Shown here piece by piece: positions 2,668-24,428 of a stretch of 64,000 nucleotides of DNA. Source of the stretch: a virus. The notes beneath the pieces were generated by a model, which worked only from the letters and a program-made list of their open reading frames with translations, was not told where the DNA came from and ran no database searches. The position numbers and the translations under genes are program-made. Location of the stretch: positions 62,001-126,000 of the IMG/VR virus record IMGVR_UViG_3300009703_004110; one strand, given 5' to 3'. Within the stretch, counting starts at the first letter, position 1. The number at the start of each line of letters is the position of its first letter.

Positions 2668-3693
2668 CTAAGTATTTTCTTTTATAGACATTTTCTTCTT
2701 TCTCTTCTCAATTTTTGATGCTTGAGAGCTTTTCCTGATTGCCTTAAATAATCTTTTGTGATTTTTTACCAAGAAATCAAATGCATGACCAGACTCTATT
2801 TCTGTAATTTCAAATTGGCAATAAGCAAGATGATACAATAAAGGCTCTCTATCTGGATAGATAGGATACTCTATATATCTATAGTCATGAACGGCTATAC
2901 CTTGCGCAGGGCTTATTTTTTCTGTAAATATAGGCACACCCTCGATGATCGCCTCTATTGAAGTCGCACTAGCCGGGGCTACACATGCCCAAGCACCCTT
3001 TAAATCAACTTGAATTGGTCTATCAATAGAGCTGCTTAGGACTTCCGCATTAGATATGCCCTTTACGGCTCTGTAGATTGGCCTTATATCCGTTCCTCCT
3101 GGCTTTGGTCTTACTCTGATTGGTCTATCAGTATTCGCTCTGATAATTTTCATAGTATTCTTTAGCCAGTTTGGCTTCATTCCCATTGCTCCAGAAAAAA
3201 ATCCAGTTGGAGGGCAGACTAGGACGTACTCACCTTCGGTTTTCCACGGCTTAAGCTTTATATTGAATTTCTCAAAGCGATCTGCCGGTCTTCTCTCTAT
3301 CTTGGTTGGATGAATCCCATTGGCTACTATTCTAAAGCTTGGAGGATTTCCAGAATGAACACCCTTCCATCTATAACCTCTATCAAAATATGCATGGTCT
3401 ACATAAAGTAAATCACCAGCACCATCTTGTAAGCATGGCTTAACAATCTTGTGAATAGTATCTTTACCAAAAGCTACAGATAGCCCTGGATATATCTGGT
3501 CTACATCTTGAGACGCATATAAATGCCCATACCCTCTGGATGTATCAACTAGTTTAAGCATGACATATCGCGGGAATAATTTATGCCTATCCATATAAAA
3601 GTTGATATTAAAACGAGACTCGTCCCTATCGCTAGTTTCTTTTGCTACTTTAGCGACCCTCTCTATCCAGCCCGGCTCTAATCTCCATTTCAT
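2668..3693 (-). CDS. GT-B-like glycosyltransferase, paralogue A of a five-member family
   Basis: This 341-residue protein belongs to a family present five times in the window (here, 4677, 6432, 8072 and the second half of 9707). Shared features are a W-x-x-G strand (PWKTEGEYVLVCPP), a DRPIRVRPKP strand, an S-x-x-x-x-EAI-x-G-VPIF motif and a tail pattern of YP-x-REP-x-x-x-x-LAY-x-Q. The C-terminal half resembles the nucleotide-sugar-binding half of capsule polysaccharide proteins of the KpsS/KpsC type, which include Kdo transferases; this is a resemblance, not a proven assignment. The last 20 residues are lysine-rich. Donor and acceptor are unknown. Confidence 0.6.
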   Translation of the reverse strand: MKWRLEPGWIERVAKVAKETSDRDESRFNINFYMDRHKLFPRYVMLKLVDTSRGYGHLYASQDVDQIYPGLSVAFGKDTIHKIVKPCLQDGAGDLLYVDHAYFDRGYRWKGVHSGNPPSFRIVANGIHPTKIERRPADRFEKFNIKLKPWKTEGEYVLVCPPTGFFSGAMGMKPNWLKNTMKIIRANTDRPIRVRPKPGGTDIRPIYRAVKGISNAEVLSSSIDRPIQVDLKGAWACVAPASATSIEAIIEGVPIFTEKISPAQGIAVHDYRYIEYPIYPDREPLLYHLAYCQFEITEIESGHAFDFLVKNHKRLFKAIRKSSQASKIEKRKKKMSIKENT

Positions 3694-3694
3694 A

Positions 3695-4684
3695 TTATGC
3701 AGGACCCATTATAAAGTCTTTTCCGGCCCTCTCTAAAACTTTGTAACCGAAGGTTTTAATGATATACTTTTTTGTTTCATTATTTATTCTGCCCTCTAAC
3801 TCTAGTTCAACTATCATGATTGGCTGGCATCTTTTGATTGTCTCTGTAGCACCTTTAATAACTGCATCTTCAAAACCTTGTACATCTATTTTGATAAGAT
3901 CTACATTTTTAAGCTTGAAGCTGTCAAGCGTTCTTACCGCTGTACCAGTTCCTTTGGTTGCGTATGTATTTCCACTATTTCCAGCTTCAATATTTAAAAA
4001 TACCTCGCCCTCTTCGCTTCCTAGGGCGATATTGTGACATATAAGGTCTGGGCAGTTTTTGATGAAGCATTCATAACTCTCGGCTGACGGCTCGAATGCC
4101 ACCACTCTTTCAAAATGCTCAGACATCGCCTTGGAGTAAAACCCAACATGTCCTCCAATATCTACGGACGTGTTTCTGCCCGATAAATATTTTAGAACCT
4201 TTACGTAGGTATGGTATTGATATCTATCCGTATCTCTTGGAAAATGGTCGTCATCTTTTGGAAGTGCCATCTCACTTGGCCTGCGCTTACTTGCTATCAT
4301 AAAGACTCTTTCGCTATTATTTAGAAAGGTATCTATTCTCCAGCGATGCTGAAAGTGTCGCGCAAAGACGCGCTCATTTTTTAAAAACCTGCTGCTTGGC
4401 ACCTTGGAGTCTATAAGAATAGTATCAGCAACCTTTGGAAGATTTTCGATGATCTTTCTTATATCCACATCCCTGTTTCTTTCTAAGAATTTAGAAACAA
4501 TAACTAGGTCAAAAGAGTGAGCGTCCAGACTTAGAGCCTCAGATGGTGACACGAACCTAACAGAAGCTGTCGGGAAAAATTTACGTAGATGCATCATAAG
4601 ATCACCAGTTTTATTTCCATAAACTCCGATTGTCTCAAACCCGTAACCACGTAAAGAGCGTTTAATTTGTTTCAAATTATGCAT
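3695..4684 (-). CDS. FkbM-family methyltransferase with degenerate N-terminal methyltransferase-like domain
   Basis: The C-terminal half (about residues 165-329) is an FkbM methyltransferase: DIGGHVGFYSK SAM-binding motif, VVAFEPS, and the family's IKIDVQGFED segment. FkbM enzymes O-methylate sugars or polyketides. The first roughly 120 residues look like a second Rossmann-type domain (ETIGVYGNKTGDL, then FDLVIVSKFLER), which lacks a convincing glycine motif I and may be non-catalytic. GGAG precedes the ATG, and the start overlaps the preceding stop. It lies between two members of the five-paralogue glycosyltransferase family, so it likely caps or decorates the same glycan. Confidence 0.8.
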   Translation of the reverse strand: MHNLKQIKRSLRGYGFETIGVYGNKTGDLMMHLRKFFPTASVRFVSPSEALSLDAHSFDLVIVSKFLERNRDVDIRKIIENLPKVADTILIDSKVPSSRFLKNERVFARHFQHRWRIDTFLNNSERVFMIASKRRPSEMALPKDDDHFPRDTDRYQYHTYVKVLKYLSGRNTSVDIGGHVGFYSKAMSEHFERVVAFEPSAESYECFIKNCPDLICHNIALGSEEGEVFLNIEAGNSGNTYATKGTGTAVRTLDSFKLKNVDLIKIDVQGFEDAVIKGATETIKRCQPIMIVELELEGRINNETKKYIIKTFGYKVLERAGKDFIMGPA

Positions 4685-5540
4685 CTAATATTCTCCAAAT
4701 CTTTGGTGACTTCATTTCATGAACAGTAAATTGTCCATAGGATAAGTGTCTCATCCACATTTCCCTATTTGGATAAACAGGGTCATTTATTTTTGACAGA
4801 CGCTTTAAGCCCATTGGCCTAGAAGCATTAGGCCCAAGTGTAAATACCGGAATGCCGTGCATTACCGCCTCAATGCCGGCTACGCTATTATATGTTACCA
4901 TAGCAAAAACATCATTGTCAAAATCATCCTGGATTATGTTTTCAGTCAGTCTAAGGGTTCTAACTCTAGGTTTCAACCTTACTCTGATCTCTTTATCAGT
5001 ATTTTTCTTGAGCCTTTTGACGATTTTTTTTGTCCATACTTCAGCATCAATATTAAAATAGTGAGCGGACTTTAAGGATGGGGGACAGATTAAAATTGTT
5101 CCGCCTTTCTTCTTCCACGGAAGAAGAATCTTATTCCAGTCAACGCCTTGGTGCTTATATATAGTCTTTTGTGCCAGTTTATATCTATCATTGGGACGTG
5201 GTATAATCTTGTCAAATTGCACATCATTTTTAACAATTCTATGGAATAGCTTTCCTGTAGTAAGAATCGGCTTACCCTTTGGATCTGTATAATACTTACT
5301 AAGATTCCCAAAGTAACCGGTCTCTACATAATAATAGTCGATACCGTATTCCAAAGCTAAATGCATAACTCTTCTGTCACGAAGCCCTCTAACTAAAATC
5401 TTAGAGCCTCTATATTTTTCAATATTATTCATGAAGTCTTTTTTGACCATGATTTCTGCATCACAAGACTTGGCAAACTCACTAAGAATGCTGTCTCCTG
5501 GCCTAAAATAAAACGATCTATTCTTCATATCATTTTTCAT
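4677..5540 (-). CDS. GT-B-like glycosyltransferase, paralogue B of the five-member family
   Basis: At 287 residues this is the shortest full paralogue. It keeps the family's key blocks: PWKKKGGTILICPP, TDKEIRVRLKP, the NSVAGIEAVMHGIPVFT strand-loop, and the tail DPVYPNREMWMRHLSYGQF. These blocks correspond to the C-terminal donor-binding half of a GT-B fold. GGGGA precedes the ATG at 5540, and the gene overlaps the end of the GT-A gene at 5530 by 11 bases. Its N-terminal part is reduced compared with the 341-residue paralogue at 2668. Function is inferred from context; it could be a capsule/Kdo-type transferase. Confidence 0.6.
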   Translation of the reverse strand: MKNDMKNRSFYFRPGDSILSEFAKSCDAEIMVKKDFMNNIEKYRGSKILVRGLRDRRVMHLALEYGIDYYYVETGYFGNLSKYYTDPKGKPILTTGKLFHRIVKNDVQFDKIIPRPNDRYKLAQKTIYKHQGVDWNKILLPWKKKGGTILICPPSLKSAHYFNIDAEVWTKKIVKRLKKNTDKEIRVRLKPRVRTLRLTENIIQDDFDNDVFAMVTYNSVAGIEAVMHGIPVFTLGPNASRPMGLKRLSKINDPVYPNREMWMRHLSYGQFTVHEMKSPKIWRILDA

Positions 5541-6357
5541 TTACAATCCCCAGGCGTTTATGAAGCCCCTTATCGTGTCGGAAGTATTCGGCTAGCATGC
5601 CTCTTTCTATTACATGTGATTGGCTTCTGCGCTTATTCGAATAATTCGATACTAGATCATTACCCGTTATACCTTCTCTCTCTTTCATTTCAAGAACTAC
5701 ATTGCCAAACATGCCGCCGTCGTCCCACATCATGTATCTTCTAAAGACTTTATTTTTATACTTATCGATCCAGCAATTCAGAACTCGTCGACCTGTTCTG
5801 TCCGTCCGAAAGCCTATAAAACCAGACTCCACTCCGAGGCCCTTCTTGGGCCTCTCACTTCCCCAGTGATAGAAAAATGCCTTTCCGCCAAAAGCTTTAT
5901 CCATGAGCCTTGGTGTTAGGTTTTTAGTTACTTTGGCATCCGCATCTAAAAAAACTATGGCATCATATTGATTTCCATAGTGACTCATTGCATAATCTAA
6001 AGTTACAATTTTTCTAAACCATCCTGCCGCTCTAAAGTTCCACGGCAAAAAAGCTTGAGGCACCTTCTTCCTGTCAGCTCTTCCTCCCATTTCTGGCGGA
6101 ATAACATCAGAGTTTTCTTTTAGCCACTTGACCAGAAATGGATTTCTGGTCATATTGTATGCTTTAATTCTGTGTATATGTTTCTCTCGAATTTTTCGAG
6201 ACTCCATATATGCTGGCTTCATTGCATTATATTTAAAACCTTCATAACACAATAGGAGATCGCCCTCAGATTCGCTCTTGAAAAAAGAGTTGATCATATC
6301 TTTCGCGGACGCTTTCCAGATACGATGGTTGAAGGTGGTTACATATAATACATTCAT
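5530..6357 (-). CDS. GT-A fold glycosyltransferase
   Basis: A 275-residue protein with an N-terminal strand of GT-A type (MNVLYVTTFN) and a DxD-like metal/nucleotide motif FLDADAKV at about residues 137-143. Further on, a GVESGFIGFRTDR segment and an acidic WDDGG resemble acceptor-side loops of GT-A enzymes. I take the ATG at 6357, which has AGAGG upstream, rather than 6387. The gene starts at the divergent junction with the only plus-strand gene, and a TATAAATA box lies at 6378-6371. Sugar specificity is not visible. Confidence 0.7.
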   Translation of the reverse strand: MNVLYVTTFNHRIWKASAKDMINSFFKSESEGDLLLCYEGFKYNAMKPAYMESRKIREKHIHRIKAYNMTRNPFLVKWLKENSDVIPPEMGGRADRKKVPQAFLPWNFRAAGWFRKIVTLDYAMSHYGNQYDAIVFLDADAKVTKNLTPRLMDKAFGGKAFFYHWGSERPKKGLGVESGFIGFRTDRTGRRVLNCWIDKYKNKVFRRYMMWDDGGMFGNVVLEMKEREGITGNDLVSNYSNKRRSQSHVIERGMLAEYFRHDKGLHKRLGIVNEK

Positions 6358-6370
6358 AAATACCTCTTTA

Positions 6371-6378
6371 TATTTATA
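6371..6378 (-). promoter_or_regulatory. Possible T4-like late promoter box (TATAAATA)
   Basis: The minus-strand octamer TATAAATA matches the T4 late promoter consensus and lies about 14 bases before the ATG at 6357, in the short divergent gap between 6357 and 6432. In an AT-rich genome such a match can occur by chance, so support is weak. Confidence 0.3.
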
Positions 6379-6431
6379 TACTTGCATAGTAATATAGTGA
6401 CAAATGAAAAGTTAGAGATGGGGTTTTCGAA

Positions 6432-7454
6432 ATGAAAGTTGGTATATTTTTGGCGACTACTAGTGGTAAGGCAAAGCAAGATATTATGCGAAGTTTTGCC
6501 GCTGGTGTCAAAGCCTCTGGTGACCTTGCCAAAATATTTGATAAGCGAGAATATCGCAAGTGTGATTTAGCTTTAATATTTGGATTTTATAATGACCAAA
6601 ACATGGGAGCAATACAGTCCTTTAGAAAAAAAGTTTATGAAACCCACGAAAGTCGTGGAAGAAAATGTTTGTTTGTCGATGCAGATTTTTTGAGATTTGC
6701 AGGAAAAATTAGAGCCGAAGCTCCAGATGATCCAACTCAGCACCTTAGAATCTCTCACGGTTCCATCTTTCCAAGTCGCGCTAATTACTTCAATGAGTTT
6801 TCCGACAATAGACGATGGAAAGAATTAAGAAGAAGAAAGCATATAGTTGTAAAAGATTACCGAACCGATGGGGATCATATCCTAATGTTACTCAATAGCA
6901 GTAGCAAATATGGCAGAGGCTGGTCTGCTCGCGGAACAGATAGTATGTACTGGCTGCAGAAAAGTTTATCCGAAATTCGTCAGTACACAGATCGTCCTAT
7001 TCGAGTTAGATTTCATCCTAATGAAAAGAAGGATTTAAGAGAGTCTAGACCAGTCGAGGCCTTACAGAAAATGTATGGAAATATTACCTTTTCTGGTGGC
7101 GTTGTCGGATCTAATAAAGCGATACTTCCACCCAGAACTTTGATAGAGGATTGTGATAACGCATGGGCCGCCGTAGTCCATACGACCTCTGCTTCCGTTA
7201 TACCAATAATAAATGGGATTCCTGTCTTTACAAGTAGTCGAGACTGTATTGCTTTTCCTATCGCAACACATCGTTTATCAAAAATAGAGAAGCCGAGCCT
7301 GCCAAAACGAGAGCAATGGTTTTATGATCTATCCTATAGTCTATGGAACGTAGAAGAATTGAGGGATGGAGTTGCGTGGAAAAGAATTAAAAGCAGAATA
7401 AACTCTAGCGGAGACTATTCTAAAGCAAAAGCTAAAAAGCTTGGGATTATTTGA
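6432..7454 (+). CDS. GT-B-like glycosyltransferase, paralogue C, the only plus-strand gene
   Basis: A 340-residue member of the five-paralogue family encoded on the opposite strand to every other gene here. It keeps the family blocks TDRPIRVRFHPN, TSASVIPIINGIPVFT and the tail KPSLPKREQWFYDLSYSLW, with ELRDGVAWKRI near the end. The N-terminal strand MKVGIFLATTSGK is clear. Its 3' end overlaps the convergent methyltransferase gene by 8 bases, and its 5' end faces the GT-A gene across about 75 bases. A GGGG run 8-9 bases before the ATG could serve as ribosome-binding site. The inversion implies its own promoter. Confidence 0.62.
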   Translation: MKVGIFLATTSGKAKQDIMRSFAAGVKASGDLAKIFDKREYRKCDLALIFGFYNDQNMGAIQSFRKKVYETHESRGRKCLFVDADFLRFAGKIRAEAPDDPTQHLRISHGSIFPSRANYFNEFSDNRRWKELRRRKHIVVKDYRTDGDHILMLLNSSSKYGRGWSARGTDSMYWLQKSLSEIRQYTDRPIRVRFHPNEKKDLRESRPVEALQKMYGNITFSGGVVGSNKAILPPRTLIEDCDNAWAAVVHTTSASVIPIINGIPVFTSSRDCIAFPIATHRLSKIEKPSLPKREQWFYDLSYSLWNVEELRDGVAWKRIKSRINSSGDYSKAKAKKLGII

Positions 7455-8085
7455 TATTCTGATTTACAAAGACCCATCCGTTTCTATTTAAGAATGAATC
7501 ATTTATCTTTTTAACAATCACATCGTCACCTTTAAAGATATAATTAAATCCGCCGAGACCTTTCTTCACTCTCATAGTCGAGTTCGCTCTGACTCCCTGT
7601 GTTAATATTCCAGACACTTTAAAGTTATTTTCTGAAAAGATGCTATTCCAATAATTAAAGTGTCTTTCATTAACATGATGGTATCCGCCCTGCCCTGGTC
7701 TTGCGTGCGTCACCACTAGATACTTGCAAGCCGAAAACGTTGCCATGAAGTTGCCTATATATTTCTCTTCGACATGTTCCAGAAACTCAACTGACCATCC
7801 TATATCAAAGTATCCCGATCTTGGTAAACTTGGTATATTTTTGGCCCTAAGCGGCCCAACAGCGTAGTCATGTATATGCACTTCAGGCTTATCTCTGAAG
7901 GTTGGGTCTCCATCCACACCCTGAACTATGAGTCCTAATTTCTTGGCCATTTCAATTTGCCCACCCGGACCACAGCCTATGTCCAAAAAGGTCTTGGCTC
8001 CGACTTCATTCTTTAGGTACTCTAGTGCCCCGTAGTCACTCCATGTTTTATTGTTATGTCCACCTAGATGTTCAGCTCGTCCCAT
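7447..8085 (-). CDS. Class I SAM-dependent methyltransferase
   Basis: A 212-residue enzyme with a clear motif I (FLDIGCGPGGQ, about residues 33-43), an acidic motif II (VDGD) and a post-motif SVEFLEHV. These are typical of SAM-dependent small-molecule or sugar methyltransferases. GGGAG precedes the ATG at 8085, which overlaps the stop of the glycosyltransferase gene at 8072. It is flanked by glycosyltransferases on both sides, so a sugar acceptor is likely but not shown. The 3' end overlaps the convergent gene by 8 bases. Confidence 0.8.
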   Translation of the reverse strand: MGRAEHLGGHNNKTWSDYGALEYLKNEVGAKTFLDIGCGPGGQIEMAKKLGLIVQGVDGDPTFRDKPEVHIHDYAVGPLRAKNIPSLPRSGYFDIGWSVEFLEHVEEKYIGNFMATFSACKYLVVTHARPGQGGYHHVNERHFNYWNSIFSENNFKVSGILTQGVRANSTMRVKKGLGGFNYIFKGDDVIVKKINDSFLNRNGWVFVNQNIK

Positions 8086-8965
8086 TTAAATGCTCCCAGA
8101 ACAGCCCTTGGCTGAGTTCTTCTAATGTCCACTGCTTGTATGCTAGATCGTAAAGCCATTGCGTTCTATCTGGCGTAATAGGGTCATTAATTTTTGTTAA
8201 GTCTGTGTTTGCTATAGGATACGCCATTGAGCCTATATCGCAAGCAAACACAGGAATTCCTTGTATTGCCGCCTCTACGGCTGTATTTGAATTAAATACC
8301 ACAACAGCTTTAGCTCTTTTTAAATCCATTGCAAGCGAGTTCTGAGACCATTCTAGCCACTTTGGTGTAGCAACCTCATACCACTCCTTTCTTCTTCTAA
8401 AAGAGGGGTGTGGTCTAAATACAAGCTTCCTATGCGTATTTTCAGACACTGTCTTAATAGTGTTGCTAAGCCAGTCCATATAGCCCTGCACGGATGCTGG
8501 ACGCTTTTTATATCCAGTGTTCAAATGCTGAACATTGCTATCCCACGGCACTTGTCCGCAGATTAAAATATTCTTTCCTTTGACCTTCCAATCTCGCACA
8601 TCAACATCCAGTTTTTCAAATCTATCTTTAGGACAATTTTTAACGACAAAGTCTGCACGACCATTAATTCCATTCCATCCAACAGAGTGATAAATACTTC
8701 TATTTATAAAGCCTCTTTCGAAGGTCAAAACTTTGTGCCCTAGCGAGTTTTGCGTATCATACATTTCTTTTCTGAAGCTTCCTACTTTAGACATTCTTTT
8801 GTGAAATCCGTATAGTGCGGCAATTTCTGATGGACGATATTCATCCTCATATAATACCTGATAATCTTCACCAACAGCATCTAACCCGGCTATTCCGGCC
8901 TCTAAAGTCGCTCTGACAATTCTATTTGTTCCTCTTCTAATATAGACGATGATTTTGGTTTCCAT
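8072..8965 (-). CDS. GT-B-like glycosyltransferase, paralogue D
   Basis: A 297-residue member of the five-paralogue family. Blocks seen: DWKVKGKNILICGQVPWD, RKLVFRPHPSF, NSNTAVEAAIQGIPVF and DPITPDRTQWLYDLAYKQW. The start is set at the ATG at 8965, with TTAGGGA upstream, not at 8995. It is closely related to the C-terminal half of the fused 9707 protein: both have IA-x-x-YG-H or YGF near the start, YHS-x-GW, and C-G-x-(I/V)-PWD. With the upstream gene at 8976 it forms a split version of that fusion. A Kdo-type transferase is one possibility; the donor is unknown. Confidence 0.62.
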   Translation of the reverse strand: METKIIVYIRRGTNRIVRATLEAGIAGLDAVGEDYQVLYEDEYRPSEIAALYGFHKRMSKVGSFRKEMYDTQNSLGHKVLTFERGFINRSIYHSVGWNGINGRADFVVKNCPKDRFEKLDVDVRDWKVKGKNILICGQVPWDSNVQHLNTGYKKRPASVQGYMDWLSNTIKTVSENTHRKLVFRPHPSFRRRKEWYEVATPKWLEWSQNSLAMDLKRAKAVVVFNSNTAVEAAIQGIPVFACDIGSMAYPIANTDLTKINDPITPDRTQWLYDLAYKQWTLEELSQGLFWEHLNGTS

Positions 8966-8975
8966 TTTTAAATCC

Positions 8976-9710
8976 CTAAGTACTTTGACGGTCAAAAAAT
9001 TCTCTCAAATAGGTCTTCTGAATCTTTCTAAACTCTTTTCTTTTCTTGCTTCGTCCTTTGCCAGCCCAAATTTTACTTTCTGCGCTGTAGTTCCAGTCAA
9101 TGTATTTTTTAGATAGATTAAAAAAGACTATATCCTCTCTAAGCTTAAAATATTCATAAGTCTTATTAAGAGCCTTCTGATCTGAGTACCAATTTAAAAT
9201 ATTTTCCTCTCTGATTCTTTTACAGTATTCATCCAAGAATTCTAAAGTAACCGGCCTGTTATTTAAGAAGATTATTCCGCTCAAAATATTTCCTATATCT
9301 CTCTCTTTTGGTCTGAAATGAAACATAATATGACATTTATCTTGCAGATCGAATGCACCATCTATATTATCTATTAGAACGGAATCTGCATCTATATATA
9401 CCAGATTATCGAGCTTATCTACAGTCAATAACTCTCGTATGACCTCTCCTCTAATATTTGCACTATAACAGATTACCTCACTTTTTCCCGCCCACTTAAC
9501 CGGGTCTGTGCTGAGGCTCCAGTCGTTCCTCTCTCTTACCACTACCGGCATATTTCCTACTTGCAAGGTTATCTCGTCTATAAATTCTTTTGAAGCATTA
9601 ATTAAATACAAATATATATTGACATCGGCTTGATGCTTTAAAAGTGAAGCTATAAGCGCCCTTCCGTAATTACCATAAGACTCTGTAATTATAATTAAAA
9701 TATTCTTCAC
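8976..9710 (-). CDS. GT-A fold glycosyltransferase (paralogue of the 9707 N-terminal domain)
   Basis: A 244-residue protein with a Rossmann-like start (MKNILIIITESYG) and the DxD motif VYIDADS at about 104-110, as in GT8-like GT-A enzymes. Near the end is YIDWNYSAES...GKGRSKKRK, almost the same as YIDWKYSHKS...GKGRSKKKG in the neighbouring fused protein, so the two arose by duplication. The start is a GTG at 9710 that overlaps the preceding TGA as GTGA, with GGAA upstream. It probably works together with the GT-B-like protein at 8072. Confidence 0.72.
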   Translation of the reverse strand: MKNILIIITESYGNYGRALIASLLKHQADVNIYLYLINASKEFIDEITLQVGNMPVVVRERNDWSLSTDPVKWAGKSEVICYSANIRGEVIRELLTVDKLDNLVYIDADSVLIDNIDGAFDLQDKCHIMFHFRPKERDIGNILSGIIFLNNRPVTLEFLDEYCKRIREENILNWYSDQKALNKTYEYFKLREDIVFFNLSKKYIDWNYSAESKIWAGKGRSKKRKEFRKIQKTYLREFFDRQST

Positions 9711-11374
9711 AGCACTTCCGCTAAATGCCTCCAGGCACGTCCTCGACTAATCTCCTTCAAAGTCCATTGCGAATAGGCCATGCCGGCCGTCCACTTCTTT
9801 AAATTCGGATATGCTGGATAATTAATGCTTCGAATATTATGAACTGATGCAGAGTATGCTATACTTTTATTGCTAATCATGAATACTGGGACACCAGCAA
9901 CTAAAGAATCTACGGCTATTTCGGAGCCGTAAGTTACGACGGCATAAGCATTTTCTAAGTCTTTTGTAAGACTGTGATATGACCATCTCATATTATGCGG
10001 AATTGTATCTTTAAATAATTCTTTATCAGAAAAGCCTGGGGCTGGCCTGAATACTATCTCCATTCTAGTATTCTTTTTTAGAATACGTATAGTTGCTTTA
10101 AGCCAAGATAAATAATTATTTATGGCCACATTTTGATCTTCTATATTTTCGTGAAGATCTGTCATATTATAATCCCATGGAATATCACCACATAATAAAA
10201 TATATTTTCCACTTTTACACCATGGTTCTAGTCTTACATTTAATTGTATACGCCTATCTCCAGCTGGTTTTCTAATATTAAAATTATCTACTCCGTTTGG
10301 GTTATACCAACCAGCAGAATGATAAGAATTATTTTTATGAAAGCCTTTATCAAAGATAAGTGTTTTTCCATTATAAAGCTGTTGAGAGTCGCAAATAAAT
10401 TTCTTTGATCTTCCTGCCTTGGTTGTTATATTTGGATGACCATATATAACGGCTATTTTAGATGGGCGATATTCTGACTCGCTCGCTATTGCGACCTCTT
10501 GTCCGTGCCTTTCTATACCACTTTTTGCCGCATTTAAAACATCTATTGATGATGCCGTTCTTTTGCGTTTTGCCACAGCAGTACTTTCGTGATACACGAT
10601 TATTTTAGATGTTAATAATTTGTTTTTCTCTGGGCTGATAAATAACATATCGAATGCGTTTCGATAACTTTCTTGAGCGATTACAAAAGGACCCTTTTTC
10701 TTGCTTCTGCCTTTGCCAACCCATAAGCATGACTTATGGCTGTACTTCCAGTCTATATATGTTTTACTTATATTTCCATAACTTTCTGGATAGTTATGAT
10801 ATAAATAAGATAGAGACATTTGATCTGCAAACCAAGTTAATATTCCATTGTCATTAACTTTGTCATTATATAAGTTTACAAAATCTCTTGCTTCTTGATT
10901 ATTAACATAAAACATTATGCCGCTTAAAACCTTGATTAGACCATCTTTAGGCCTAGCGTGAAATGACACATTGTACTTTTTATATCTTTCAAATAGGCCT
11001 TCTATGCTTTTTGTTATTATAGAATCTGCGTCTATATACAATAAAGAGTCAATATCTTCTGTCTCAAGCAGCTCTTTGATTATGCTAACTCGAACATTCG
11101 CACTAAAGGCCATAAGCTCGCTATATATCAAGCCACCAGCTCTTTTATCTAGTTCGTCACTTAACTCTGGACGATCTATGTTTCTGATGTTAATGGGGTA
11201 TCCAGAAGTTTTATATTTCAACTCTTCTGTAACATCTTTAGGTGTGTTAATAAGATATAAATATATATTAAGTCCCTTTTCATGAATGAAAAAAGAAGCT
11301 AATAATGCCTTAGTGTAGTCTAAATAAGATTCTGATGAAACAATTAGAATGTTTTTTTTTATCTCACTCTCCAT
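9707..11374 (-). CDS. Bifunctional glycosyltransferase: GT-A domain fused to GT-B-like paralogue E
   Basis: A protein of about 555 residues with two parts. Residues 1-260 form a GT-A domain (KKNILIVSSESY start, LLYIDADSI metal motif near 114), homologous to the separate protein at 8976. Residues 270-555 are the fifth copy of the GT-B-like family: EPWCKSGKYILLCGDIPWD, VFRPAPGF, IAVDSLVAGVPVF and YPAYPNLKKW with AYSQW. I place the start at the ATG at 11374 (MESEIKKN) rather than 11407. Two catalytic domains in one chain suggest that two successive sugars are added, as in some capsule polymerases; this is inference. Confidence 0.68.
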   Translation of the reverse strand: MESEIKKNILIVSSESYLDYTKALLASFFIHEKGLNIYLYLINTPKDVTEELKYKTSGYPINIRNIDRPELSDELDKRAGGLIYSELMAFSANVRVSIIKELLETEDIDSLLYIDADSIITKSIEGLFERYKKYNVSFHARPKDGLIKVLSGIMFYVNNQEARDFVNLYNDKVNDNGILTWFADQMSLSYLYHNYPESYGNISKTYIDWKYSHKSCLWVGKGRSKKKGPFVIAQESYRNAFDMLFISPEKNKLLTSKIIVYHESTAVAKRKRTASSIDVLNAAKSGIERHGQEVAIASESEYRPSKIAVIYGHPNITTKAGRSKKFICDSQQLYNGKTLIFDKGFHKNNSYHSAGWYNPNGVDNFNIRKPAGDRRIQLNVRLEPWCKSGKYILLCGDIPWDYNMTDLHENIEDQNVAINNYLSWLKATIRILKKNTRMEIVFRPAPGFSDKELFKDTIPHNMRWSYHSLTKDLENAYAVVTYGSEIAVDSLVAGVPVFMISNKSIAYSASVHNIRSINYPAYPNLKKWTAGMAYSQWTLKEISRGRAWRHLAEVL

Positions 11375-12167
11375 AGCCAAACTCACGCAGTCTGAGCCAT
11401 TCATCACCGTACTTCCAGTCTATTCCTCGTTTTGGTTCCCATATATCAAACCAAGGACCACCATTAGTGAAGTGAACGTTCTTAGCTTCTAAGCTTTCGG
11501 GAGAATGGCCTGGTAACCAATTCCACTCCTCTGGCAATTCACCTATATCTTTATCCTCTAGCCACTTCAGATTATGTAACCAAGTTCCTGGCTTAGTGCT
11601 AACATCAGCCGCTGTTAAATTGTGATGAGCCTGATGGCCGCAATTCCAGAGCATAACACTGGACCAGTTTTTTCTACTATAAAATGTTTGTGGGCATCCG
11701 TAGAGCTTGACAGCAACTTTGCCACCATCCTCAAACTGATGCTTAACACACTGTAAAGCTGGCGCGTCTGCAGTAGCGTAGCGATCAAATATCTCACACG
11801 GGTCGCTGCGAAAATACATATCGTTATCCATAAACAAAGCAAACCCTTCGTGCTGGTTTAAAAAAGGAACTAAAAATCTTGAAAAACTGAACTCTGTCGA
11901 ATACGGCTTACCATCGAACCTGTCTACCATATGGTCTACTTTATTTTGCCCCCATACAGTGGATTCTACATGCGGAACCCTAAAATATAATCCACTTCTT
12001 CTTAAGCTTGTCTGATTTAAGGTCACAATATTAAGCGGCCTAGAGGCGTGTCTTAGGATTGAGTCTGTTAAAACTTCAGAGGCATGATGATCTCTTGGGT
12101 CATAACCGATGTATATTGTATCTAGCTTTCTAACTTCTTTATCATTCTGATTAATGACTTTTCTCAT
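11364..12167 (-). CDS. GT-A fold glycosyltransferase (GT8-like)
   Basis: A 267-residue protein with TIYIGYDPRDHHASEV near the N-terminus, the metal-binding motif FMDNDMYF at about 112-119, and HFTNGGPWF near the C-terminus. The combination of a D-x-D with a late H-x-x-x-G-x-x-W segment is characteristic of GT8-like retaining enzymes and related phage proteins. The ATG at 12167 has AAGGAG eight bases upstream; the upstream in-frame TTG at 12173 is rejected. The gene overlaps the HAD gene by 17 bases. Confidence 0.72.
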   Translation of the reverse strand: MRKVINQNDKEVRKLDTIYIGYDPRDHHASEVLTDSILRHASRPLNIVTLNQTSLRRSGLYFRVPHVESTVWGQNKVDHMVDRFDGKPYSTEFSFSRFLVPFLNQHEGFALFMDNDMYFRSDPCEIFDRYATADAPALQCVKHQFEDGGKVAVKLYGCPQTFYSRKNWSSVMLWNCGHQAHHNLTAADVSTKPGTWLHNLKWLEDKDIGELPEEWNWLPGHSPESLEAKNVHFTNGGPWFDIWEPKRGIDWKYGDEWLRLREFGYGE

Positions 12168-12954
12168 CAGCAATTCTCCTTACTATAGACTCTATAATTT
12201 CGAGTGTTTGCGCGGGATCACGAGTTTTATATGCAAAGCCCGTAGGTTTAATAGCGTCATATAAAGCAGCATCATTACCAAATTCTTCGCATCTATCACC
12301 TACGAACCATATTTTTTCATAGTCATCGAAATGCTTTAGAACATATGTTTTATCCCAGCCTGACGGATAAATATCAAACGAGGTATTTCCACCTAGTACC
12401 GCCGTTACTCTGCTATCTATCCTTTTAAGCCTTCTATTTAACCTTCCCAAAAAACGAACTCTAAGGCCGGTCTCTTGATCTAATTCTCTAAACTGTTCTC
12501 GTTGATCTGTATTAGCATTTCTACCGATCGGGCACCAATTTATCATTGAGCCTCTAAGCTCTAAAAAATTACCCGTTAAGGGGATTAAAAGCCCTTTCTC
12601 TTTGACAAGACATTTTTGTAAGTCAAAAATAATGGCCATTATTCCGGCCATTACTTCAGCACCTAAATGCTCTTCCATATTATTGAAATAAATCTCTTCA
12701 TAGTCGTCGATCTTATCTTTATGCTTATAAACCTTTGTGCCATTACATGGTAAAATTATAATTCTATTTAAAAGCATATCTTCAAATACTTGCGGCATTT
12801 GCTCTTGCAAGTAATTATAATCGCTTCCTGAAACTACTCCCACTTCTGCGACCCAAAGCAACTCCATTAATGCTTTAGCTATTTCATCTCCCATTTGGCC
12901 GCGCGCAGGTGTTAATGTGCCGTCCATGTCGAACAGCACCAGATGATCGGACAT
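12151..12954 (-). CDS. HAD-superfamily enzyme resembling eukaryotic-type phosphomannomutase
   Basis: A 267-residue HAD protein. Motif I is LFDMDGTLTPAR at about residues 7-18. It is followed by VGVVSGSDYNYLQEQM and, at the C-terminus, WFVGDRCEEFGNDAALYDA plus KTRDPAQTLEII. These strings are characteristic of the PMM1/PMM2 type (HAD subclass IIB), which converts mannose-6-P to mannose-1-P; no mannose-1-P guanylyltransferase is visible here. TAGGAG precedes the ATG at 12954. Alternatively it acts as a sugar phosphatase and could fill the missing Kdo-8-P phosphatase step. The family is clear; the reaction is less so. Confidence 0.75.
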   Translation of the reverse strand: MSDHLVLFDMDGTLTPARGQMGDEIAKALMELLWVAEVGVVSGSDYNYLQEQMPQVFEDMLLNRIIILPCNGTKVYKHKDKIDDYEEIYFNNMEEHLGAEVMAGIMAIIFDLQKCLVKEKGLLIPLTGNFLELRGSMINWCPIGRNANTDQREQFRELDQETGLRVRFLGRLNRRLKRIDSRVTAVLGGNTSFDIYPSGWDKTYVLKHFDDYEKIWFVGDRCEEFGNDAALYDAIKPTGFAYKTRDPAQTLEIIESIVRRIADEKSH

Positions 12955-12955
12955 C

Positions 12956-13426
12956 TTAACTCCTAGATTTAGCAACCAGTTCACTACTGCTCTGAACCTT
13001 TCCACCGCCAACATTCCACAACATGTAGATGCCAAGTTCATTACAGACCTTTACTTCTGGTACGTTATCAGATTTTCTGTCGCCACCATTGGCAAAGAAA
13101 TCTGGACATAGTCTTCTTAGTGCTTCACAAACTGAACCATCCGAGTCATCCACATGGCTCACATGCACTACGCCTCTTATCGCAGATAATATTTCTGCTC
13201 TCTCCTCAAAAGACATAAATACATAACCTTTCTTTCTCATTAGCCACTCATCACTGTTGGCCACAACAATAACTTCCTTGCCACCCTTAGCGGCATCTAA
13301 AATCATTTGAACGTGGCCAACGTGTATTGGGTCAAATCCACCGGAAACAACTACCGAACTCTGTTCGTACCCGTCATAAGTCTTTTTGGTTTCCCAACTT
13401 CCATCATCATTTAACGGCATCATCAT
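12956..13426 (-). CDS. HxGH nucleotidyltransferase (cytidylyltransferase-like)
   Basis: A 156-residue enzyme with the nucleotidyltransferase signature GGFDPIHVGHVQM (HVGH at 35-38) and a later Ser-containing loop (KVQSSSELV) in the place of the family's second motif. Relatives transfer CMP or AMP to small phosphates, for example glycerol-3-P cytidylyltransferase or the HldE C-terminal domain. Three consecutive ATGs follow GAGGAG, so the true start is one of 13426, 13423 or 13420. It is placed among Kdo and mannose genes, so its product may be an activated sugar; the substrate is not visible. Confidence 0.75.
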   Translation of the reverse strand: MMMPLNDDGSWETKKTYDGYEQSSVVVSGGFDPIHVGHVQMILDAAKGGKEVIVVANSDEWLMRKKGYVFMSFEERAEILSAIRGVVHVSHVDDSDGSVCEALRRLCPDFFANGGDRKSDNVPEVKVCNELGIYMLWNVGGGKVQSSSELVAKSRS

Positions 13427-14000
13427 CTCCTCTGGCTACTTGCCCTAAGTATCCACCATGATGTCTCTTAGCGTACTCCTCTTTCGTAAATTTTTTCTTT
13501 TCCATCACGACCATAGCTAGTACGTCGCCAATAACTAACATCACTGTTGTTGAGCATGTTGGGGCCATGCCTAGTGGGCATACCTCCGGGTATCCTCCGG
13601 TTTCAATCACTACATCAGATTGTACTGCCAGCGGCGCATCTTTATTAGCAGTGACTGTGATTAGCTTTAAATCACACAGTTGCTTTGCCAAATAAGTAGA
13701 CTCAATAATCTCTCGTGTCTTGCCAGAGTTAGAAAAAGCAATCATTAGATCGCCCTCTGCTACCATTCCAAGATCACCATGTTGAGCTTCGCACGGATGA
13801 AGATAAAAGGCAGGCGTCCCTGTTGACGCGAAAGTAGCGGACACTTTTCTAGCTATTAGCCCCGCCTTCCCCATTCCTATAAAGACAAGCTTGCCTTTAC
13901 ACTTTAGTATCTCCTCTACTGCTTCATCAATTCCGGTCAAAGGAATGGCTTTAATTGCATTAACCTCTTCCTTCAGCACCTCTTTAGCTGTTCTTCGCAT
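13407..14000 (-). CDS. kdsD: D-arabinose-5-phosphate isomerase, SIS domain only
   Basis: Interconverts ribulose-5-P and arabinose-5-P, the first step towards Kdo. This is a single SIS domain: FIGMGKAG near 41-47, the catalytic-histidine segment EAQHGDLG near 71-78, and SNSGKTRE at 90-97. At 197 residues it lacks the two C-terminal CBS domains of E. coli KdsD/GutQ (about 320 residues), like other short isomerases. The gene overlaps KdsB by 17 bases, which supports a role in one pathway. A GmhA-type isomerase is an alternative, but the motif order fits KdsD better. Confidence 0.85.
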   Translation of the reverse strand: MRRTAKEVLKEEVNAIKAIPLTGIDEAVEEILKCKGKLVFIGMGKAGLIARKVSATFASTGTPAFYLHPCEAQHGDLGMVAEGDLMIAFSNSGKTREIIESTYLAKQLCDLKLITVTANKDAPLAVQSDVVIETGGYPEVCPLGMAPTCSTTVMLVIGDVLAMVVMEKKKFTKEEYAKRHHGGYLGQVARGDDDAVK

Positions 14001-14757
14001 CTATCATACCTCGCATTATTGCTCTTGCTTTATCTAAGTCTTTCTGTGTGTCAACTGAAAATTTCTCAGAATCATTACAGTTGGTTGTTCTTATAGTAAT
14101 CTTATTAAATAGCCAAGTAAGCTGCTCTAATTTTTCAGTTTCTTCTAGATATGACATTGGTAAATTTTTAATGATATCTAAAGTAGGACGTGTAAAGCCA
14201 TATGTGCCTACATGTTGGGCATACGGATTATATAGTACCCGATCTCGGCAATGCGGTATTGGACTTCTGCTAAAATATATTGCATCATTATTCTTATCTA
14301 GAACTACTTTAGCTATAGTATCATCGTTTATAGCGTTTTCTGATAGCTCTGTTACAAGAGTAGTGACGGCTATTTCTTTTGGGTCTAAAGATCGCAAGAA
14401 GTCTACTGAATCTTGTACAATTTTTAATGATATTAGAGGCTGGTCTCCTTGGATGTTCAAAAAGTAATCATATCCTGGGTATAATTCCGCCACTTCTGCG
14501 ACCCGTAAAGTGCCGGATATATGATCATGACTTGTCATTACTACAGTTCCACCAAATCCCTCTACTGCTTTAAAAATTCTGATATCATCGGTTGCAACCA
14601 TAGTCGTTGGCAGAATTTTAATTACTCGCTCATAAACCCATTGTATCATAGGCCTGCCACAAATATCCGCCAGAGGCTTCCCTGGCAGCCTGCTAGAATC
14701 ATATCTAGCAGGAATTACTCCAAGCACATTTGCTGACATATTACTCATCTTCTTCAC
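13984..14757 (-). CDS. kdsB: CMP-Kdo synthetase (3-deoxy-manno-octulosonate cytidylyltransferase)
   Basis: Activates Kdo with CTP to give CMP-Kdo. The N-terminal signature VIPARYDSSRLPGKPL (residues 14-29) and the following GRPMIQWVYER are those of KdsB. Later blocks NIQGDQPL and HVGTYGFTR match the CTP/Kdo-binding parts, and its 257 residues match the family's usual size. The ATG at 14757 overlaps the dioxygenase gene; ATGs at 14748 and 14739 are also possible. It is transcribed with KdsD, while KdsA lies about 8 kb upstream in the same transcription direction. Confidence 0.93.
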   Translation of the reverse strand: MKKMSNMSANVLGVIPARYDSSRLPGKPLADICGRPMIQWVYERVIKILPTTMVATDDIRIFKAVEGFGGTVVMTSHDHISGTLRVAEVAELYPGYDYFLNIQGDQPLISLKIVQDSVDFLRSLDPKEIAVTTLVTELSENAINDDTIAKVVLDKNNDAIYFSRSPIPHCRDRVLYNPYAQHVGTYGFTRPTLDIIKNLPMSYLEETEKLEQLTWLFNKITIRTTNCNDSEKFSVDTQKDLDKARAIMRGMIDAKNS

Positions 14758-21428: not shown

Positions 21429-22136
21429 TTAAATCCATTTAAAAACATAGTCAAACTCTACGTTTCCAACACATGTTGCGCCCAAATTCTCCAGAAATTT
21501 TCCAGAAGCAAAAGGCTCTTGCTTTATTTTACGCGCCCTTAACTTTTCTTCTGGCAATTGTTCTATCACAATTACTGGCTTACTTATTTTAATAGTTTTT
21601 ATTGCTCCATGTAATACGTCAAGCTCATATCCATCTACATCGATTTTTATATAATCAACATTTCTAAGCTTAAAATGATCTAGTGGCAGAATCGGCATTC
21701 TTCCCTCTAAAATATCTCCACTGTACTTGATTGTTTTGGTAATAGAGTTACCTTGCATTGAGCCTATAAAACCATAATGTGCGCCTAAGCCACATGGATA
21801 TATTGTCACATTCGAAGTATCTACATTTTTTGCCAATAATGGCAGCCACTTCCATCTTGGTTCAAATGCAAAGACATGATCAAATTCTTGTCCAAGGTGT
21901 CTGCACCACTCTCCAAATCTGGCTCCAATGTCCAGCGCTATTCCTCTGCCTTCACAATGATCCAGACTAAGCTGCCTTTGCTTTATTTGACCGGGACCCC
22001 TACAGACGTCTGCCTTAATATTCGTCTTTTTAAGATAGGCCGATTGCTTGTAAAGATCTTGCTTGGTGATGATCTGATCTCTCATATAAGTATAAGATCC
22101 GAGATCTTCTATCGTATAGGGATTCACATTAAACAT
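21429..22136 (-). CDS. FkbM-family methyltransferase
   Basis: A 235-residue FkbM enzyme: SAM motif ALDIGARFGEWCRHL (about 67-81), VFAFEPRWKW, and NVDYIKIDVDGYELD, the family's central block. It is the second FkbM protein in the window, the other being the fusion at 3695. It lies between KdsA and the ColD-like gene, so it probably O-methylates a sugar of the same glycan. The Shine-Dalgarno site is weak and distant, and the gene is coupled to the KdsA stop at 22136. Confidence 0.85.
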   Translation of the reverse strand: MFNVNPYTIEDLGSYTYMRDQIITKQDLYKQSAYLKKTNIKADVCRGPGQIKQRQLSLDHCEGRGIALDIGARFGEWCRHLGQEFDHVFAFEPRWKWLPLLAKNVDTSNVTIYPCGLGAHYGFIGSMQGNSITKTIKYSGDILEGRMPILPLDHFKLRNVDYIKIDVDGYELDVLHGAIKTIKISKPVIVIEQLPEEKLRARKIKQEPFASGKFLENLGATCVGNVEFDYVFKWI

Positions 22137-22909
22137 TATTGTAATTGACCTCTTATCTTGAGAGCTTGTACCAAGATACCTTCTAGTCTATCAAGCTGCA
22201 ATTGTGTTGCTGAATCACTGCCTGCTGAAGCCGGATCTGGATGTGTTTCGATAAACAATCCATCAACTCCAACTGCTACTGCCGCATTAACCATTGTGCC
22301 TATCATAGTCGGATCACCACCAGTTACGCCATGCGTCTGATTAGGCATCTGAAGGCAATGAGTGCAATCCATAATTACTGGAGCAAACTTTTGCATCCTT
22401 GGGATAGAAGTAAAGTCTACGATTAAATTGCTATACCCAAATGTCGTTCCTCGTTCAGTCAAGAAGACTTGTTCATTTCCAGTAGAACGTACCTTTTCTG
22501 CTGCAAATCCCATCATTTCTGGAGAGACAAATTGACCCTTCTTTACGTTGACCGGAAGGCCCGTCTCTCCTGCCGCAATTAACAGGGCGGTCTGCCTACA
22601 TAGAAAGGCCGGGATTTGAAGGTGGGTCACGTACGGAGCTACTAGGGCTGCTTCATGACTCTCGTGTATGTCTGTGATTACAGGCACATCATATGTATCA
22701 CGAATTTCTTTCAAAATGCCCAGCGCCTCTTGTTGATCGATTCCCGTAAATGAAGTTAGTCGCGTACGATTCGCCTTCGCCCATGATGCCTTAAAGATAT
22801 AATCTATCCCAAGCCTATCCGTCATCTCCTTAACTGCCTCAACAACTTGAAACGGTGTTTTTCTGTTTTCAATTGCGCAAGGTCCGGCCATCAATATTAA
22901 CTTCTTCAT
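22136..22909 (-). CDS. kdsA: Kdo-8-phosphate synthase, metal-dependent class
   Basis: Condenses arabinose-5-P with phosphoenolpyruvate to Kdo-8-P. The TIM-barrel landmarks are all present in 257 residues: MAGPCAIEN, KASWAKANRTR, VPVITDIHES, PAFLCRQT, VNVKKGQF, LTERGTTFGYSNL, DCTHCLQMP and FIETHPDP. Cys11 sits where metal-dependent enzymes (Aquifex aeolicus type) bind metal; E. coli-type enzymes have Asn. The other ligands (His in DCTH, Glu in FIETHP, Asp in AGSD) are also there. CAGGAG precedes the ATG. The phosphatase KdsC is not recognisable in the window. Confidence 0.94.
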   Translation of the reverse strand: MKKLILMAGPCAIENRKTPFQVVEAVKEMTDRLGIDYIFKASWAKANRTRLTSFTGIDQQEALGILKEIRDTYDVPVITDIHESHEAALVAPYVTHLQIPAFLCRQTALLIAAGETGLPVNVKKGQFVSPEMMGFAAEKVRSTGNEQVFLTERGTTFGYSNLIVDFTSIPRMQKFAPVIMDCTHCLQMPNQTHGVTGGDPTMIGTMVNAAVAVGVDGLFIETHPDPASAGSDSATQLQLDRLEGILVQALKIRGQLQ

Positions 22910-23574
22910 TTGTCTCTCCTGGCAAGTAATGCCTCAATTATTATTAGGTCATCTGGCACATCAACTTGAAAGCTTTCGGATGGGTACATTTCATAAACCC
23001 CTACTTTTCCAGATACGCGAACTTTATTTTTAAGCAATAGCTCTTTGGATGTAATATAGAATGCGCCATTTTCTTGGCAGCTTAAAGAAACTATTACATC
23101 TTGTCGTCTCGGCCTGTTATCTAGGGTCCATCCGTCCGGAGCCCATCCGTCCTCACTTATTTCCCATTGCGCAGGCCAATGCATTTTTGTGCCAGAGAAT
23201 ATAGAGTCTAACTTTGCATCTTTTAAAACTCTGAGTCCTTCGTTAATATCTTTTGAACGTAAAAGCGGAGATGTAGGTTGTATAAAAACTAGCTTATCAA
23301 AATCTATATTCTCTGCAAAATGAAGTAATGCACTTTCTGATGTAGACGTATCTTTTGCTAATTTTGGTGGCCTCATCAATACCATGGCCCCCCATGCTTC
23401 TGCCACCATAGCTATCTCTTCATCATCAGTACTTACCCAAGTTTCATCTACGTTTGACATAATTGCCGCTTCAATAGTGTAAGCTAACATGGGCTTGCCT
23501 CTAAGCTTCATTATATTTTTTCCAGGGATGCCTTTGCTCCCTCCTCTTGCCAAAATTACTGCTACAGTTTTCAT
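22906..23574 (-). CDS. neuA: CMP-nonulosonate (CMP-sialic acid-type) synthetase
   Basis: A 222-residue cytidylyltransferase with the N-terminal loop AVILARGGSKGIPGKNI that binds CTP, then KPMLAYTIEAA, VSTDDEEIA and FIQPTSPLL, the usual NeuA/PseF/LegF blocks. It activates a nonulosonic acid with CMP. The gene overlaps the NeuB gene by 4 bases and KdsA by 4 bases. The exact sugar (neuraminic, legionaminic or pseudaminic acid) cannot be told, because the earlier pathway genes are not in view. GAGGTGG precedes the ATG. Confidence 0.9.
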   Translation of the reverse strand: MKTVAVILARGGSKGIPGKNIMKLRGKPMLAYTIEAAIMSNVDETWVSTDDEEIAMVAEAWGAMVLMRPPKLAKDTSTSESALLHFAENIDFDKLVFIQPTSPLLRSKDINEGLRVLKDAKLDSIFSGTKMHWPAQWEISEDGWAPDGWTLDNRPRRQDVIVSLSCQENGAFYITSKELLLKNKVRVSGKVGVYEMYPSESFQVDVPDDLIIIEALLARRDK

Positions 23575-24428
23575 ACACCACCTCTAAATTTAATTCGTTG
23601 CTCTATCTCTACGTCTAAGATTTCTTTATCTTTATATCTCAAGGCCTGCTCCATTCCTTTGACGTCGCGAACCAACTTTCGTAGGCCATCAGGCTCTAGA
23701 GATGCCGCATGATCTGTACCTTTCCACGTTCTATCCATAGTAAAGTGCCTTTCTATATATTCCGCTCCGAGAGCAACAGCCCCCATATCCATTGCGATTC
23801 CAAGATGATGACCAGAGAACCCAACGCCCTTTACTGTCTTACCCCAAATGTCTTTTAGCCTCTTAATTTCTAGCAGGCATAAGTCGCCATGAGATACTGG
23901 GTATCCAGAGGTGCAACTGTAAATAACCAAATCCTTGGCCCTGTCTTCATCTACAAATAATTTTAGCAGGGTCTTCTCTTCCGCCTTTGTTGTCATTCCA
24001 AGAGACAAATGAATCTCTCCTTCGTAATTTTCAATAAGCCAGCTTATCATGTCATACTTATTATTCATTGGCGATGGAATTTTAATCTTTTTAGGCTTTA
24101 GTGAGGCAATCTCCTGCGCAGAGGTCATATCCCATACTGAACAAGAATATTCAATATTGTGCTTCTCGCAGTAGGCCAGAAGCTCCTTATGGTCTTCAAG
24201 GCTTAGCTCTAAGAAATCTCTATGTGCGCCGTATGACGGACCATACGAATTCCACGGAGAAGGGTGTGGAGCGTGATATTCTTCATCTGTAAGCAGCTCC
24301 TTGACTGTTCTCTTTTGAAGCTTAACTACGTTTACTCCGGCATAATATTTTGCTTGATAAATAAGCTTCTTGGCTATTTCAAGTTGACCTTTATGGTTAC
24401 AACCTATTTCTGCTATAACTTGAACCAT
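23571..24428 (-). CDS. neuB: N-acetylneuraminate synthase-like (NeuB) catalytic domain without SAF domain
   Basis: Condenses an acylated aminosugar with phosphoenolpyruvate to a nonulosonic acid. The NeuB TIM barrel is clear: VIAEIGCNHKGQLE, VVKLQKRT, YSCSVWDM, KIPSPMNN, LSLGMTT, CTSGYPV, GFSGHHLG and EYIERHFTMDRTWKGTDHAASLEP. It stops at 285 residues, where family members of about 340-350 residues continue into a C-terminal SAF (antifreeze-like) domain that closes the active site in the dimer partner. Whether it is active alone is open. ATGGAGG precedes the ATG. Confidence 0.88.
   Translation of the reverse strand: MVQVIAEIGCNHKGQLEIAKKLIYQAKYYAGVNVVKLQKRTVKELLTDEEYHAPHPSPWNSYGPSYGAHRDFLELSLEDHKELLAYCEKHNIEYSCSVWDMTSAQEIASLKPKKIKIPSPMNNKYDMISWLIENYEGEIHLSLGMTTKAEEKTLLKLFVDEDRAKDLVIYSCTSGYPVSHGDLCLLEIKRLKDIWGKTVKGVGFSGHHLGIAMDMGAVALGAEYIERHFTMDRTWKGTDHAASLEPDGLRKLVRDVKGMEQALRYKDKEILDVEIEQRIKFRGGV

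Follow-up and report, generated by a model that had tools for sequence, protein, structure and literature searches.

What five related proteins encoded side by side in a large virus genome might do, and how they came to lie together, is the question raised by a 64,000-nucleotide stretch (hereafter the window, to which all coordinates refer) comprising bases 62001–126000 of the 332,270-bp virus record IMGVR_UViG_3300009703_004110. A first-pass annotation of this DNA had described them as a paralogous family with a GT-B-like glycosyltransferase (GT) fold. We find that the five domains most likely belong to a virus-rich, previously unnamed branch of the superfamily of retaining transferases of beta-linked 3-deoxy-D-manno-oct-2-ulosonic acid (Kdo), which includes GT99, GT107, GT118 and GT140; no account of this phage family was found in the open-access literature. 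For the joint reading in which the family is such a branch, one member (p8072) uses cytidine monophosphate (CMP)-Kdo by double displacement, and the other four are old paralogues, we estimate a probability of about two in three. The five open reading frames (ORFs), named by their first coordinate and assigned to groups of the family tree described below, are as follows.

2668–3693, minus strand: p2668, clade I.
4677–5540, minus strand: p4677, clade I.
6432–7454, plus strand: p6432, clade IV.
8072–8965, minus strand: p8072, grade III, a complete Kdo-transferase-like domain of 297 residues counted from an ATG (AlphaFold, Foldseek and hhalign).
9707–11407, minus strand: p9707, an N-terminal GT8-like domain followed by a grade III domain (approximately residues 265–562).

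The p8072 ORF extends to a TTG at 8995, but translation more likely begins at the ATG at 8965; the p9707 ORF ends at 11407 and not at 11374 as previously noted. All ten pairs among the five proteins match in BLASTP (E 1e-64 to 7e-12), and p8072 as query recovers the other four from the whole record (E 2e-62 to 4e-13), in which a profile of 119 family members finds exactly five copies, all within 2668–11407 (8.7 kb). A hidden Markov model (HMM) built from the proteins of other viruses, this record excluded, recovers all five copies (E 4e-78 to 2e-56) and matches no further ORF of the window, so the similarity is not due to chance; the E-values and the reversed and shuffled hhalign controls given below rule out the same explanation. 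The presence of a five-member family in under 9 kb is thus confirmed. The four sequence blocks said to be shared are also real, but the patterns as written are too strict for every copy: p6432 has YRTDG in the W..G block, and p2668 has PDREPLL in the P..P...W block and lacks the W there.

Predicted structures place the family among Kdo transferases. With the AlphaFold model of p8072 (predicted local distance difference test, pLDDT, 91.7; predicted template modelling score, pTM, 0.90) as Foldseek query against the PDB, ranks 1–23 are all KpsC, WbbB or KrkA (E 6e-9 to 5e-6), which cover all three retaining beta-Kdo transferase families whose structures have been solved, and the first other GT-B protein appears only at 1e-4. 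An ordinary GT-B family using uridine diphosphate (UDP)-sugars was rejected, as Foldseek places such folds far below the Kdo transferases. For p4677, which lacks the catalytic motifs, the model (pLDDT 89.5) has the same fold, and its top 16 PDB matches are again all Kdo transferases (KpsC, WbbB, KrkA). Both models have a modified GT-B fold with a reduced N-terminal domain, which we assign to the other three copies by homology. The profile-profile comparison that had been proposed as a check, here of the family profile with an alignment of bacterial KpsC/KpsS, gave a probability of 97.9% (E 6e-13) across 164 columns, in which the base, QxxxD, HP and NS..EA..G blocks were all co-aligned, and reversed and shuffled alignments reached at most 0.3%. 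The suggested GT-B-like fold is therefore supported, and the suggested resemblance to the capsule transferases KpsC and KpsS is right at the superfamily level, given the structures, the profiles, the catalytic motifs and the Kdo pathway encoded in the same cluster. Searches at the sequence level scarcely detect the family: p4677 scores 20.8 bits against PF05159 (Capsule_synth; cut-off 20) over residues 207–238 only (32 residues), and 19.2 when sought in the DNA, the other four copies fall below the gathering cut-off, DUF6716 also scores below its cut-off, and searches of PHROGs and PDB sequences gave nothing useful.

In the characterized enzymes the nucleophile is the Asp of a QxxxD motif whose Gln binds the Kdo carboxylate, the His of a (K/R)xHP motif protonates the leaving phosphate, and the acceptor is activated by a Glu (Glu66 of KpsC, in an EDGF motif) (PMC9587256, PMC10148158, PMC12887879); the nucleophile is D232 in WbbB and D160 in KpsC (QxxxD motif: PMC10148158, PMC12887879). 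Three elements of p8072 correspond to these.

8540–8554, minus strand: QVPWD, equivalent of the QxxxD nucleophile motif, in register with QVEDD of KpsC (hhalign).
8405–8416, minus strand: RPHP, equivalent of the (K/R)xHP CMP-binding and leaving-group motif (hhalign).
8717–8719, minus strand: E83, in FERGF, aligned with the general base Glu66 of KpsC (EDGFLRS) in the profile alignment.

All seven invariant residues of the reference set are present in p8072 (base E83, Q138-V-P-W-D142, R184-P-H186-P187, S226, G236), and it alone among the five has the whole catalytic set of base Glu, QxxxD and RxHP; the predicted placement of E83, D142 and H186 in the active site is based on the profile alignment and Foldseek. 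The Kdo half of p9707 keeps the Asp of QxxxD but has Asp for Gln (GDIPWD), Ala for His (RPAP), and Asp at the base position. In p6432 the HP (RFHP) and an Asp base are kept, Gln is replaced by Asn, and Gly occupies the nucleophile column, while p4677 (CPPSL, RLKP) and p2668 (CPPTG, RPKP) have lost both QxxxD and HP and retain an acidic residue at the base position, Asp in p2668. The base column is thus acidic (Asp or Glu) in all five. Four copies have lost one or more residues essential in characterized enzymes, and some of these could be pseudo-enzymes or work by a different mechanism.

A tree of 119 domains groups 39 in clade I (including p2668 and p4677), 35 in clade II, 31 in clade IV (p6432) and eight in grade III (p8072 and p9707), with six outside the named groups; the viral loci were collected with two peptide patterns, which biases the clade frequencies. 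Clades I, II and IV are unchanged when the tree is rebuilt without the motif columns, which excludes a circular definition by those columns; III splits into two groups and is accordingly called a grade. The nucleophile column is Asp in III (8/8), Ser in II (35/35), Gly in IV (31/31) and mixed in I. The His of HP is present in all of II and IV and in seven of the eight III domains, and the Gln in 35/35, 30/31 and 7/8, respectively; clade I has neither, with Lys or Arg in place of the His in 39/39. The base acid is kept in 112 of 113 domains across I–IV. Since KpsC, KpsS, WbbB and KrkA all carry the nucleophilic Asp, the likeliest reading of its absence from I, II and IV is that it was lost.

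The proposal that the five arose by local expansion is mostly wrong. A single clade for the window copies is rejected (log-likelihood difference 161, p-AU 1e-4), and with it one origin within this virus; the copies belong to three old lineages that co-occur in many phages, and only p8072 and p9707 form a recent local pair. The gene between these two is listed here.

8976–9710, minus strand: an unfused GT8-like protein that shares 41% identity with the N-terminal half of p9707.

Because this gene and the adjacent p8072 are unfused sisters of the two halves of p9707 (41% and 36% identity), the recent local event was duplication of a two-gene unit of GT8 and grade III domains, one copy of which was fused into a single ORF. 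The fused copy has lost the Gln and His that its sister p8072 keeps. An independent fusion, of a GT8 domain with a clade I domain, is present at another viral locus (L009:2421–4124).

Similar arrays recur in other viruses, with sets of three to five such genes in many aquatic phages. Among 51 non-redundant IMG/VR loci of ~12 kb each, 34 have at least three copies within ~12 kb, and in 20 the order is exactly I-IV-II, all on a single strand. Several neighbours are conserved as well.

11364–12173, minus strand: GT8-like 'IGYDPR' glycosyltransferase, at 30/51 viral loci (Pfam GT8 on a relative).
12956–13426, minus strand: RfaE-II-like nucleotidyltransferase, at 23/51 viral loci.
7447–8085, minus strand: 'LGGHxNKT' methyltransferase, at 7/51 viral loci.

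Genes for Gmd (18/51) and an FkbM methyltransferase (16/51) are further neighbours, and both are present in the window too. KdsB is near arrays at three of the 51 loci, and among 49 array-bearing records (including this one, some being near-duplicates) KdsA is present in nine and a CMP-sugar transferase in seven. At two loci (L024 and L009) curated models identify these as KdsA, above its cut-off, and KdsB, which falls below its own cut-off although no other model scores better; both lie within a few kb of the array, and in L024 a UvsW-like helicase is encoded in between. The richest set seen has eight copies in a 90-kb viral contig, together with KdsA (locus L035, record G007). Caulobacter phage CcrColossus (L090) has two copies between a tail gene and the lysis cassette, adjoining a gene annotated as alpha-2,3-sialyltransferase-like; Pelagibacter phage Mosig, likewise a cultured relative, also has two. 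A pattern scan of genome contigs gave a single match, in a SAR11 single-cell contig; profile matches are present in 11 of 385 genomes of the same class, but only a few are strong, and PF05159 proteins are among the weak.

The window also encodes much of a Kdo supply pathway and part of a second ulosonate pathway.

13407–14000, minus strand: KdsD/KpsF-type arabinose-5-phosphate isomerase, SIS domain only (NCBIfam, 7.8e-52).
13984–14757, minus strand: KdsB, CMP-Kdo synthetase (TIGR00466, above cut-off, 1.7e-51).
22136–22909, minus strand: KdsA, Kdo-8-phosphate synthase (TIGR01362, above cut-off, 2e-98).
22906–24428, minus strand: CMP-sugar transferase and NeuB, a second CMP-ulosonate (nonulosonate) pathway (PF02348, 1e-27; PF03102, 3e-62).

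The remark in the first-pass annotation that the family fits the Kdo genes holds, with KdsD, KdsA and KdsB in the same cluster and KdsA and KdsB beside arrays in some relatives. The cluster further encodes Gmd, Fcl, a GT10-like fucosyltransferase and several GT4-type enzymes. At 12151–13041 is a eukaryotic-type phosphomannomutase (PF03332, 2.6e-37) that presumably feeds Gmd and Fcl for synthesis of guanosine diphosphate (GDP)-fucose. A homing-endonuclease-like gene (NUMOD3/HNH) at 1871–2620 overlaps the gmd start, and a LAGLIDADG protein is encoded at 26771–27634 amid glycosyltransferases. Of 32 genes, 23 are preceded by Shine-Dalgarno-like motifs (background 12%), which argues for a bacterial virus as the source and led us to reject an algal giant virus; a search with Terminase_6N gave no match.

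For activity, donor and stereochemistry we infer the following route. The phage would make CMP-Kdo with its own KdsD, KdsA and KdsB, taking the phosphatase from elsewhere because KdsC was not found in a search across the 332-kb record. From CMP-Kdo, p8072 would take Kdo (or a close ulosonic acid) by double displacement, with H186 protonating the leaving CMP, D142 forming the covalent Kdo adduct, Q138 holding the carboxylate, and E83 activating the acceptor hydroxyl. As p6432, p2668 and p4677 have no nucleophile, any transfer by them would follow another route, probably inverting, or they would serve as binding or scaffold modules; the Kdo half of p9707 looks catalytically crippled. We also entertain, as a tentative idea more doubtful than probable, that the loss of the nucleophile in the phage branch (Asp to Ser in II, to Gly in IV), with the CMP-binding His, carboxylate-binding Gln and acceptor base kept, makes the arrays natural retaining-to-inverting switches within one fold, which side by side build a Kdo-containing virion glycan.

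Several observations weigh against the assignment of p8072 as a CMP-Kdo transferase. The kinship is distant, with template modelling (TM) scores to solved structures of ~0.5 and root-mean-square deviations of 8–9 Å; phmmer with p8072 against PDB chains finds no Kdo transferase, the family profile against PDB sequences reaches only WbbB (E 0.015), and neither search gave significant direct similarity to characterized members of GT107 or GT99 proper. In the phages whose kdsA/kdsB linkage is closest, the copies belong to I, IV and II and none bears the nucleophile; CMP-Kdo is thus only indirectly linked to the QxxxD copies. KdsC is missing, as noted, and the donor is ambiguous because of the NeuB pathway. 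That the donor is instead a CMP-nonulosonate from the phage NeuB and cytidylyltransferase, as in KpsS1, with Kdo used by another enzyme, strikes us as unlikely even with both genes in the same cluster and with a nonulosonate as the donor of GT118 (KpsS1, a retaining pseudaminyltransferase), which is related within the superfamily (PMC12887879): a NeuB homologue is present at none of the 51 array loci of ~12 kb each, KdsA and KdsB are present at some, and most nonulosonates with an equatorial C5 group are argued to fit the active site poorly (PMC12887879).

The RfaE-like gene, which is far commoner near arrays than KdsB (23 versus 3 of 51 loci) and whose best matches are split between heptose adenylyltransferases and glycerol cytidylyltransferases, raises another donor for clades II and IV, perhaps for the whole array: a cytidine diphosphate (CDP)-activated small polyol or heptose rather than a CMP-ulosonate. 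We consider this improbable, as II and IV keep HP and the Gln to which the carboxylate of the ulosonate binds in known enzymes, and among solved folds it is Kdo transferases rather than CDP-glycerol transferases that come nearest. Least probable of all is the proposal made at first reading that all five arose by local expansion and are active, with a different sugar or linkage for each. All five do retain the core of the fold and an acidic base position, and they have diverged strongly, but a single origin is rejected, four of the five lack the Gln, the nucleophile or the His, which makes equal activity unlikely, and p9707 has lost two residues that its sister keeps.

If p8072 does transfer Kdo from CMP-Kdo, the acceptor could lie in the cytoplasm or in the host envelope. 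No ABC exporter (ABC2_membrane) or Wzx flippase was found in the 332-kb record, the sugar cluster encodes no polytopic membrane protein, and tail-like giant genes adjoin that cluster, with large structural-looking genes at 33.5–64 kb; on these grounds we prefer an acceptor in the cytoplasm, for instance a virion protein, to a host glycolipid. This is the most speculative part of the reading, and modification of a lipid A core or capsule lipid that the host itself exports is almost as plausible. Very large ORFs of 1516, 3215, 1104, 2056 and 783 residues at 33512–62580 probably encode proteins of the tail or fibres; Pfam and PHROGs match almost nothing in those scanned, and a search of 50,697 phage records found no relative of the 783-residue ORF. 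For mycobacteriophages, glycosylation of the virion has been documented (as cited in PMC12619734), and lipopolysaccharide genes of marine phages are usually read as modifying the host surface (PMC5332604). Whichever donor is used, modification of host lipopolysaccharide or capsule lipid to block superinfection, or decoration of phage DNA, is a serious possibility that we place somewhat below even odds. Kdo is a normal sugar of the host envelope, KdsA, NeuA and Gmd genes of marine phages have been so interpreted (PMC5332604), and host MsbA could export a modified lipid A core; against this stand the missing exporter, flippase and membrane proteins, and the adjoining of arrays to tail-like genes both here and in CcrColossus.

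Among known systems, KpsC (GT107) and KpsS (PF05159) share with the family the fold, QxxxD, (K/R)xHP, a base motif (FExGF compared with VEDGF) and the NS..EA..G block. Identity is only ~12–15%, the phage modules are single and short (~290 residues) and reach the PF05159 cut-off at most once in five, and the phages are without capsule export genes. Unlike group 2 capsule assembly, with its ABC-2 exporter KpsMT, KpsS and two-module KpsC, the record has no ABC2_membrane match and none of the five is a two-module protein. The N-terminal module of WbbB (GT99) has QVEDDSN where p8072 has QVPWDSN, and both systems include multi-GT fusions, but WbbB, which carries a helical insertion, terminates O-antigen chains, and the phage domain is ~100 residues shorter. 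KrkA (GT140), itself a deeply divergent member (PMC12887879), shares the fold class and the QxxxD/HP logic; its sequence similarity is negligible, and its base Glu102 lies on a different strand from the KpsC-type base matched by p8072. The marine virus TARA_ERS478052_N000008 likewise carries Kdo and GDP-fucose pathway genes (KdsA/NeuA/Gmd), and the part of PMC5332604 dealing with it describes no Kdo transferase.

The closest predicted viral structures include the 'capsule polysaccharide biosynthesis' proteins of Tetraselmis virus 1 and K4JVV7 of CcrColossus (TM to query 0.62–0.76), which are also multi-copy; both are uncharacterized, and the host of the former is an alga. In BFVD this green-alga giant virus has at least four proteins of the fold (A0A2P0VP54, A0A2P0VNK4, A0A2P0VP74, A0A2P0VP72; E 6e-20 to 1e-12), and because the Tetraselmis theca is rich in Kdo these may represent use of the same family by a eukaryotic virus.

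The covalent double displacement of retaining beta-Kdo transferases is described as having no parallel to date in other glycosyltransferases (PMC12887879), and the evolutionary origin of these enzymes has been called unclear (PMC10148158). A phage-rich branch with well-separated lineages and near-invariant but differing active-site signatures amounts to a natural mutagenesis series for loss of the nucleophile. Genes labelled 'hypothetical protein' that recur as a block in phages of marine and fresh waters thereby gain a hypothesis of function, under which certain phages would both synthesize and transfer Kdo, a sugar that is a hallmark of their hosts' envelopes.

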